A stretch of 64,000 bases of DNA from Novosphingobium kaempferiae. GTDB taxonomy: Bacteria; Pseudomonadota; Alphaproteobacteria; Sphingomonadales; Sphingomonadaceae. The notes under the pieces are model-generated. The model was given only the letters and a program-made list of their open reading frames with translations, did no database searches and was not told where the DNA came from. This document shows, in pieces, positions 1,532 through 7,872 of the stretch. The position numbers and the translations under genes were made by a program. Where the stretch lies: NCBI RefSeq assembly GCF_021227995.1, contig NZ_CP089301.1, forward strand, positions 4,712,001 to 4,776,000. The letters are read 5' to 3'. Within the stretch, counting starts at the first letter, position 1. Every line of letters starts with the position of its first letter.

Positions 1532-1607
<76 letters not shown>

Positions 1608-5656: not shown

Positions 5657-5739
5657 GCGGCACCGGCCCTCTCCCCCACCCGACCTCCCACGAGCGTATC
5701 CTTGATGGGAGGTCGGGTGGGGGAGAGGGCCGGTGCCGC
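5657..5739. repeat. 34-bp perfect inverted repeat (palindrome D)
   Basis: Arms 5657-5690 and 5706-5739 are exact reverse complements around a 15-base loop (CGAGCGTATCCTTGA). The left arm begins GCGGCACCGGCCCTCTCCC. It lies between divergently transcribed rarA and the membrane protein at 5822. There is no T-run, so it is not a classical terminator. It looks like a dispersed intergenic palindrome rather than an operator. Confidence 0.9.
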
Positions 5740-6349: not shown

Positions 6350-7162
6350 ATGCCGCATCCGCTTGGCCTCGAACTGCTGACCATGCTCGGGCTCGATCCG
6401 GTCGCCCATGTCACCATGGCGGCGGACCTCGGGTGCAAGGGCGTGTCGATGGGGCTGACCCAGCTGCCCGATCGCTTCAATCCGCACGGCTATCCGGCAT
6501 GGTCGCTGCGCGACGATCCGGCGCTGCGGCGCGAAATGAAGGCGGTGATGGCTGACCGCGGGGTGACGATCTGCCTTGCCGAAGGGCTGGGCGTCTCGCA
6601 CGATACCGATGCCTCGGAGCGGGCGGCGGACATGGACCTTTTCGCCGACCTCGGCGCGCTGCGAGTCAACGCCGTGGACATGGGCGTCGAACGGGAACGC
6701 GCCTTCGACCAGCTTGCCGCACTGGCCGACATGGCGGACGAGCGCGGCATGGAGTTCTCCATCGAGTTCACGCCGGTCTTCACCATCCGCTCGCTGGACG
6801 AGGCACTGGAAGCGGTCGAGCATATCGGGCCGGGCAAGGCGACGGTGCTGATCGACACCATGCATTTCTTCCGCTCGGGCGGGACGGTGAAGCAGGTGGC
6901 GGAACTCGACCCGGCGCTGATCGGCCACGTCCAGCTCTGCGACGTGCCGCGCAAGGGCGACGGCGACTACATGGCCGAGGCGATGAGCGGGCGCATGATC
7001 CCGGGGCAGGGCGAACTGCCCTTGCGCGAATTCGTCGAGGCTCTGCCGCGCGGGCAGGTGCTGGGGCTGGAAGTCCCGCTGATGGCCGCCGCGCAGAGCG
7101 GCCGCGAAGCGCGGGACTACGTGGGCGAGATCGTGAAGCGCACGCGCGAGTTTCTTGTCTGA
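6350..7162 (+). CDS. Sugar phosphate isomerase/epimerase family protein
   Basis: 270-residue protein of the xylose isomerase-like TIM-barrel superfamily (AP endonuclease family 2 fold). Visible hallmarks are an early barrel strand with VAHVTMAADLGCKGVSMGL, a metal-ligand Glu candidate in MEFSIEFTP, TVLIDTMHFFRSGG supplying Asp/His, HVQLCDVP, and a C-terminal LGLEVPL strand; the order fits the family. GGGAGAGGA lies ten bases before the ATG. Substrate unknown; relatives act on inositol derivatives, keto-sugars or hydroxypyruvate. The stop codon sits directly before the promoter-like element at 7164. Confidence 0.82.
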   Translation: MPHPLGLELLTMLGLDPVAHVTMAADLGCKGVSMGLTQLPDRFNPHGYPAWSLRDDPALRREMKAVMADRGVTICLAEGLGVSHDTDASERAADMDLFADLGALRVNAVDMGVERERAFDQLAALADMADERGMEFSIEFTPVFTIRSLDEALEAVEHIGPGKATVLIDTMHFFRSGGTVKQVAELDPALIGHVQLCDVPRKGDGDYMAEAMSGRMIPGQGELPLREFVEALPRGQVLGLEVPLMAAAQSGREARDYVGEIVKRTREFLV

Positions 7163-7163
7163 C

Positions 7164-7192
7164 TTGACATTTTGAACCATTTGGGTTATATG
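7164..7192 (+). promoter_or_regulatory. Near-consensus sigma70-type promoter
   Basis: TTGACA (7164-7169), a 17-base spacer, then TATATG (7187-7192). The -35 box is perfect and the -10 differs from TATAAT at two positions. No protein gene follows, so it is best read as the promoter of the structured RNA candidate that starts near 7199. Confidence 0.72.
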
Positions 7193-7198
7193 GCCCAG

Positions 7199-7608
7199 CA
7201 TCCGGTTCGACGCAGATCACGTCGCATCGGTGTATCGGGTCGGCGTCGTGGGCCGGGATGCGGTATCAAGCCGTAGCTACGCACCACGGTGTCCAATCGA
7301 AGACCCGGACCGTCCTCTAGGCTCTGGCCCGGCCGTTCCCCCAACCGAGTTCTCGGCCTGGGAGCGGCTCTCCCGGAAGTCCCATGACCGATACCGACGC
7401 GAACCCCAACGTCGGTCATACCGGACAGGTCCGATGGAATACAGGTCGAGCCGGGCTGCTCTCCGCACCTACCCGGCCACTCGCAACGCGCTGCGGAAAC
7501 CAAACCCCCGCGTCCCGTCCGGACGCTCACGACGCCGACCCGATGTTCACTCTCGGATCCTCGCGTTTCTTCCCCGGCGTTAGGCCCGCACTCGCCAGCG
7601 GGCGTTTT
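7199..7608 (+). ncRNA. Candidate structured non-coding RNA of about 400 nt, family not recognised
   Basis: The region lies between two convergent protein genes and has its own promoter (7164-7192) and a terminator-like hairpin (7584-7608). Bases 7234-7250 (ATCGGGTCGGCGTCGTG) are the exact reverse complement of 7528-7544, a 17-bp helix closing about 280 bases; it extends by a G-U and two more pairs. Inside are local hairpins: 7394-7399 with 7410-7415, 7450-7455 with 7472-7477, and GGGAG/CTCCC near 7361-7375. I do not find the RNase P signature GAGGAAAGTCC, a tmRNA tag ending in LAA, or an SRP core, so I cannot name it. Open frames here run through the terminator and look non-coding. Confidence 0.55.
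7584..7608 (+). terminator. Intrinsic terminator-like hairpin
   Basis: GCCCGC (7584-7589) pairs with GCGGGC (7598-7603) around an 8-base loop, followed by GTTTT. The T-run is short. It fits the 3' end of the RNA candidate started at 7164. Confidence 0.5.
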
Positions 7609-7627
7609 CGTGTGTCCATTCCCGACG

Positions 7628-7717
7628 TTCGTCATTGCGAGCGCAGCGAAGCAATCCAGCGCAGTTCTATGCCGCTGGATTACTTCCCCCGGCCTTCGCC
7701 GGGGTCGCAATGACGAA
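7628..7717. repeat. Dispersed palindrome family A, copy 1 (diverged right arm)
   Basis: The left arm starts TTCGTCATTGCGAGCGCAGC. The right arm ends TCGCAATGACGAA, but the middle of the right arm is replaced by a CCCCCGGCCTTCGCCGGGG hairpin. Other copies: 12866, 13677, 28836, 30232, 36466, 44254, 48172. Confidence 0.85.
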
Positions 7718-7737
7718 ATGTGGGTGGAGATAACGCC

Positions 7738-7872
7738 AATTCCTCCCCGAGCTTGTCTCGGGGAGGGGGACCGCCGCCGCAGGCGGTGGTGGAGGGGGAT
7801 GGATCGCGCAATTCCCCCTCCGTCAGCCGCTACGCGCCTGCCACCTCTCCGAGACAAGCTCGCGGAGGAATT
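7738..7872. repeat. Dispersed palindrome family B, copy 1
   Basis: The left end AATTCCTCCCCGAGCTTG (7738-7755) is matched in reverse by 7844-7872. Between them are a CCGCC/GGCGG hairpin and a GGTGGTGGAGGGGGA segment. The same architecture recurs at 42811-42942, and its left half at 51037-51087. The right end overlaps the stop codon of the GMC oxidoreductase gene. Confidence 0.85.

Follow-up and report, generated by a model that had tools for sequence, protein, structure and literature searches.

The element at positions 7164-7612 of the window (the whole 64,000-nt stretch of Novosphingobium kaempferiae DNA analysed here) is one of ten dispersed, near-identical full-length copies in the 5.7-Mb genome, and from sequence comparison we consider it somewhat probable (roughly 0.58) that they belong to a family of structured noncoding RNAs that act in trans, are transcribed independently and are maintained in many dispersed and homogenised copies. 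A promoter, a long-range stem and a 3' hairpin recur together in homologues of several genera, so these features exceed what chance would give.

At the window locus a stop codon, TGA at 7160-7162 as read from the sequence, lies directly 5' of a plus-strand promoter (7164-7192), made up of a -35 box TTGACA (7164-7169), a 17-nt spacer and a -10 box TATATG (7187-7192). This arrangement is present as the original prediction described it, and every one of the genome's ten copies keeps the promoter. On the same strand, AACC-N5-GGTT reaches across the spacer and the -10 box (AACC 7175-7178, GGTT 7184-7187), and 7164-7188 is an exact match to the motif TTGACn6AACCn3TnGGTTA; the AACC half deviates from the motif in seven of the ten copies. 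A generic promoter scan, whose -10 rule requires a final T, returned no site at the locus. The predicted noncoding transcript would cover about 410 nt on the plus strand (7199-7612), its 5' end being placed by the promoter. The fold of the plus strand is better than that of 99 of 100 shuffles (z -3.1), while the fold of the minus strand is weaker (z -2.0, with 3 of 100 shuffles equally good). The perfect 17-bp plus-strand complement that had been pointed out between 7234-7250 and 7528-7544 is also present, and its pairing, named helix P1 (5' and 3' strands, respectively), is kept in relatives. Elsewhere in the window, the space between two genes contains an inverted repeat whose 33-nt arms (5657-5689 and 5707-5739) match perfectly.

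Four probes, taken from the promoter, the middle and the P1 3' strand (up to three mismatches each) and from the 3' hairpin (exact), all led to the same ten loci and to nothing else in the genome, thus no truncated copy containing any of the probes is left there; at up to three mismatches the promoter occurs at the ten copies only. Model R2, described below, likewise returns ten copies. In the alignment, similarity between the copies sets in abruptly at TTGACA, the preceding flanks being unrelated, and the shared part ends just past the 3' hairpin. A dispersed palindromic repeat (CGTTCGTCATTGCGAGC...GGTCGCAATGACGAA, without strand) follows 3' of eight of the ten copies and adjoins the window copy at 7626-7717. 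Additionally, a palindromic 8-mer at 7273-7280 (GTAGCTAC here, GCGATCGC in other copies) has been swapped as a unit between copies; it could form a self-complementary loop, by which RNA dimers might arise.

Over the whole window, the sole match to Rfam 15 at gathering score is a tRNA gene (1535-1607, minus strand). No family reached its gathering score for 7100-7720, where a search to E<=5 returned only anti-hemB at 13.6 bits (cutoff 49.5), a chance match, and 14 divergent member loci gave no match either. RNase P RNA, tmRNA, 6S, HEARO and other known families were rejected because none matches at gathering score; RNase P RNA and tmRNA have only their size in common with this RNA, which is multi-copy, and the earlier view that it is neither of them stands. 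Literature searches found no mention of the RNA family, and term searches in the main texts of the discovery surveys PMC11109978, PMC8632094, PMC2864571 and PMC6429828 found neither Novosphingobium nor Erythrobacter, although their supplements may still list these genera. The proposal of an undescribed structured RNA is thus upheld by the lack of an Rfam family, by the conservation of the locus in relatives and by covarying pairs, with expression predicted from the DNA.

Structurally, the central domain folds as a plus-strand three-way junction, made of Pa (GCGA 7399-7402 with TCGC 7481-7484, i.e., GCGA/UCGC in the RNA), Pb (ACC 7403-7405 with GGT 7444-7446) and Pc (GCCGGG 7450-7455 with CCCGGC 7472-7477). 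On alignment A2 (36 sequences, including L079 and L131, which were retained despite misplaced 3' ends) 86.6% of the cells are paired and 11 of 17 pairs have changed on both sides; for Pc this holds for seven of eight pairs, and the first Pb pair is G-C in 28 sequences, A-U in four and G-U in four. The covariation score of the junction is 0.221 against 0.095 when shuffled (none of 500 shuffles reaches 0.221) and at most 0.100 when the structure is slid, and RNAalifold predicts the same junction de novo. The window copy itself has the junction, and R2 recovers all ten copies by this domain. Since the ends of the domain were chosen via the Pa motifs and, where several were possible, the best Pc energy, the choice favours Pa and Pc; Pa also lies within the motif used for searching, whereby its constancy cannot count as separate evidence, and it is Pb and the changing Pc pairs that carry the argument for the junction.

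For the longer-range pairings, 68 domain sequences were grouped into 22 clusters for mate-swap tests (36 for A2). Helix P1 gave p = 5e-5, the lowest value that the test allows, with 20 of 22 clusters above the row median, and the putative pseudoknot between TCCGCA in the Pc loop (7462-7467) and its plus-strand complement TGCGGA (7492-7497) gave p = 0.004, with 16 of 22 clusters above the row median. These values come from a second scoring, by ungapped helices; the first and cruder swap tests, scored by duplex energy over wide windows, were not significant (p = 0.12 for P1 and p = 0.13 for the pseudoknot). The long-range helix P1 is kept through many sequence changes, and the pseudoknot, less strongly supported than P1, is probably part of the conserved architecture. 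The GCGA junction strand could have two alternative partners, the UCGC of Pa and the YUCGCC loop at the 3' end, which, if real, would amount to a switch within the RNA or a contact between molecules.

This 3' hairpin (plus strand, 7584-7603, with the following GTTTT reaching 7608) has the loop core CTCGCC, which in the family reads YTCGCC and is constant while the stem sequence varies. Of 120 distinct promoters with sufficient sequence downstream, 97 are followed by it, a count in which many loci had been collected by the hairpin itself. The G/C hairpin with GTTTT had been taken for a terminator, and in all ten copies of this genome that is plausible; it does not extend to the family, where within ten bases after the hairpin TTTT follows in seven of 97 elements and at least five T in 16 of 97 (all genomes). 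As a T-run is rare there, the hairpin of most members is no canonical terminator but a conserved 3' domain.

Homologues are found in Novosphingobium, Altererythrobacter and Porphyrobacter, with up to about 20 per genome. Model R1, which covers the 3' part of the element, matches 18 of 397 Sphingomonadaceae genomes, and R2, which covers the central domain, 17 of 377 (at least two copies in 15 of the 17), each in five of 96 genera; across the wider class R2 returned only the N. kaempferiae genome among 337. Divergent members are missed by R2, as in G399, which has nine promoter matches and no R2 match. The pattern of the 3' hairpin occurs in at least 80 named stretches, all from Sphingomonadales where the title specifies (some titles say just Pseudomonadota or Proteobacteria), and R2 confirms 46 of the 80 listed, including stretches from Novosphingobium, Altererythrobacter and Porphyrobacter. 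For Croceibacterium the hairpin is the sole sign of membership, since its single listed stretch (L101) has no R2 match. The promoter motif is present in 66 of 195 Novosphingobium genomes, with 314 sites against one for a reversed-pattern control, which is lenient because a reversed pattern is no promoter; at least two sites occur in 47 genomes and at least ten in six. Among 30 Novosphingobium promoter loci listed, one per genome, a regular expression finds the 3' hairpin in 19, ten show family motifs by eye and one is cut by a contig end. In N. silvae (G025) the promoter pattern gives 21 sites and the 3' hairpin 18 exact matches, and by the same pattern counts one draft genome (G601) has 42 promoter sites versus nine exact hairpins. 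A lone family 3' hairpin stands behind a protein gene in N. silvae (L023), without promoter or body in front, so solo hairpins exist in that genome. N. resinovorum (G029) has at least ten copies by DNA search and may have more, since that search scored at most ten candidates per genome. Among plasmid records there is one match, to the 1.76-Mb replicon of N. resinovorum, in two places, and no annotated feature is listed at the better of them. A phage origin was rejected, as the hairpin pattern has no match in viral contigs and the element none in phage records.

The copies are more alike within a species than between species. Mean identity is 92.0% within N. kaempferiae and 82.7% among ten N. 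resinovorum copies (45 pairs each), but 73.2% between the two (100 pairs), and the copies fall into one clade per species, with a support of 1.000. At four orthologous sites, established by the flanks (on both sides for three, upstream only for one), the RNA copies of the two species are 70.1-72.8% identical while the flanks are 82-90% identical; at one of these sites the upstream flank runs right up to the element in both genomes, and at the other three the flank alignment ends up to about 160 nt from the element. Since within-species identity exceeds between-species identity even at orthologous sites with similar flanks, the pattern is one of concerted evolution. At an orthologous site represented by L031 and L040, the TGA of the upstream frame lies inside the TTGACA box in both species. 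The window site is empty in five relatives, four in which both flanks align (N. resinovorum, N. silvae, G032 and G006) and one that aligns upstream only (G031), thus copies have been gained or lost. In the empty site of N. resinovorum the isomerase gene is joined to the next region, and the missing block (7164-7738) takes in both the element and the adjacent palindromic repeat.

It seems unlikely that the element acts on a gene next to it. The 164 neighbouring ORFs of 99 elements form no cluster of more than four members and the orientations are even, which disfavours a cis-acting role and by which a cis-regulatory leader was ruled out; in seven of 43 same-strand upstream ORFs, the TGA lies inside TTGACA. 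Multi-copy, dispersed type I toxin loci exist, and seven ORFs of 30-117 codons are readable in the window copy, so that a small protein gene or a hok-type toxin-antitoxin locus had to be considered. Each of these ORFs, however, is kept in at most four of the nine other copies of the genome, and in the N. resinovorum copies six are kept in none of nine and the seventh in one; with none kept among copies, a protein gene is ruled out for ORFs of at least 25 codons, and we give this explanation hardly any credence. Barely more credible to us is a repeat that works as DNA, as a recombination or chromosome-organising site, with promoter and RNA structure incidental. The dispersed and homogenised copies, and the other dispersed palindrome after eight of the ten, would agree with it, but conserved -35 and -10 boxes, conserved loops and pairing kept through change over about 280 nt point to selection on an RNA.

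Patchy presence and insertion polymorphism also fit a mobile repeat, and this counts against our main reading. Here the family would be a non-autonomous, selfish element that requires its transcript in order to spread and whose movement at the DNA level depends on an enzyme encoded elsewhere, so that structure would be conserved for mobility and not for the host. The empty sites in five relatives, the widely varying copy number, the occurrence in any orientation without recurring neighbours, and the stop codons within TTGACA, which fit insertion at gene ends, all speak for it, and site turnover and patchiness keep it alive. The survey PMC11109978 regards motifs that occur in many copies and without a consistent orientation as possible components of transposable systems. 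On the other hand, neither terminal inverted repeats nor a target-site duplication could be clearly made out by eye (one empty site examined), no neighbour ORF cluster exceeds four of 164, which disfavours a linked mobility enzyme, and four sites are common with N. resinovorum. Copying through RNA alone would lose the promoter, as it lies upstream of the RNA; the four probes found no truncated copy in this genome, and viral contigs and phage records gave no match to the hairpin and the element, respectively. Since these probes met no truncated copies, the promoter is conserved and changes in the helices compensate each other, a multi-copy RNA gene with a function is favoured over a repeat in decay, and we consider the mobile element unlikely, yet an explanation to be taken seriously.

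The promoter motif reaches further than the RNA models, since TTGACn6AACCn3TnGGTTA is found in 49 of 337 Sphingomonadaceae genomes and in 23 of 96 genera (two for the reversed control), against five of 96 genera for the models. Twenty of the promoter loci examined were hand-picked from the lists of motif matches. In other genera the motif lies 54-62 nt upstream of holin genes in three genomes (L296, L297, L303); two of the three holins were run against Pfam, and both are GTA_holin_3TM (L296 6e-32, L303 1.4e-29). It lies 135-233 nt upstream of Clp-type chaperone (clpB-like) genes in two genomes of one genus (L312, L326), and also upstream of nuoH in two genomes (L311, L314), of ilvC (L325) and of an aromatic lyase gene (L295), and once inside a coding sequence (L305). 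At three loci of other genera (L298, L299, L306) the sequence behind the motif looks like a more distant RNA of this type that lacks the 3' hairpin motif. The motif may have one common regulator, of stress or of gene transfer. CtrA half-sites resemble AACC, but are arranged otherwise. RogA was rejected as the regulator, because its site, as reported in the passages of PMC9632790 that deal with it, is GGAA-N4-TTCC and unlike AACC-N5-GGTT, and passages of PMC13236601 hold nothing on a motif.

The holin loci also suggest an RNA specific to the production of gene-transfer agents or to lysis, for instance in DNA packaging or release, and expressed in producer cells together with the holin. One of the three holin genomes (G335) indeed has the RNA family as well, with nine R2 matches. 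In the other two (G110, G288), however, the holin is the sole promoter match and neither R1 nor R2 matches, so holin and RNA are separable; there are just three such cases, the motif also stands before housekeeping genes, and we know of no RNA in the packaging of gene-transfer agents. We therefore regard so specialised a role as improbable.

To return to a trans-acting RNA family as the preferred reading, the copies would be transcribed together, with one regulator reading AACC-N5-GGTT in the promoter; their number would serve dosage, as for rRNA genes, and gene conversion may keep them alike. Because the promoter motif also precedes holin and clpB-like genes, a stress or gene-transfer/lysis response would be the most likely setting. 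There the RNA would work in bulk, probably as the RNA component of an RNP or within an assembly of RNAs. This step is speculative, and the shared-promoter link is drawn from three holin and two clpB-like loci (the latter of one genus), all in other genomes. Taken as a whole, a new large RNA class that some Sphingomonadaceae keep like rRNA, in co-regulated and gene-converted sets of many copies, induced in bulk in stress or gene-transfer/lysis and housed in an RNP or multimeric assembly is a tentative proposal, and a rather doubtful one.

Large standalone structured RNAs of bacteria are represented by OLE, GOLLD, ROOL and HEARO. The present family is like them in size class, in the lack of an ORF, in its long-range helix with junctions and in its patchy taxonomic spread, and unlike them in its homogenised copy sets with a promoter for each copy, and in having neither an Rfam match nor a recurring neighbour gene. 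With rRNA operons it shares the mode of evolution only, that is, multiple copies, concerted evolution and a likely dosage logic; the RNA is unrelated, its copies diverge between species more than the flanking DNA, and its sites are gained and lost. Mobile or repeat sequences such as REP elements are similarly dispersed, multi-copy and variable in orientation, and the window copy does lie beside a palindromic repeat, but each member here has a promoter to itself and is predicted to form a complete transcription unit of about 410 nt, a mobility gene linked to it was not seen and, for the four probes in this genome, there are no truncated copies.

An RNA family without an Rfam 15 match, present as ten or more conserved predicted transcription units in several genomes, would be a large blind spot among bacteria that are well sequenced. 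Its mix of features, namely a structured RNA, a shared type of promoter, concerted evolution and site turnover, brings it nearer to rRNA genes than to known regulatory RNAs, and the family could serve as an entry point to a possible regulon, in which the RNA would be joined with chaperone and gene-transfer lysis genes.
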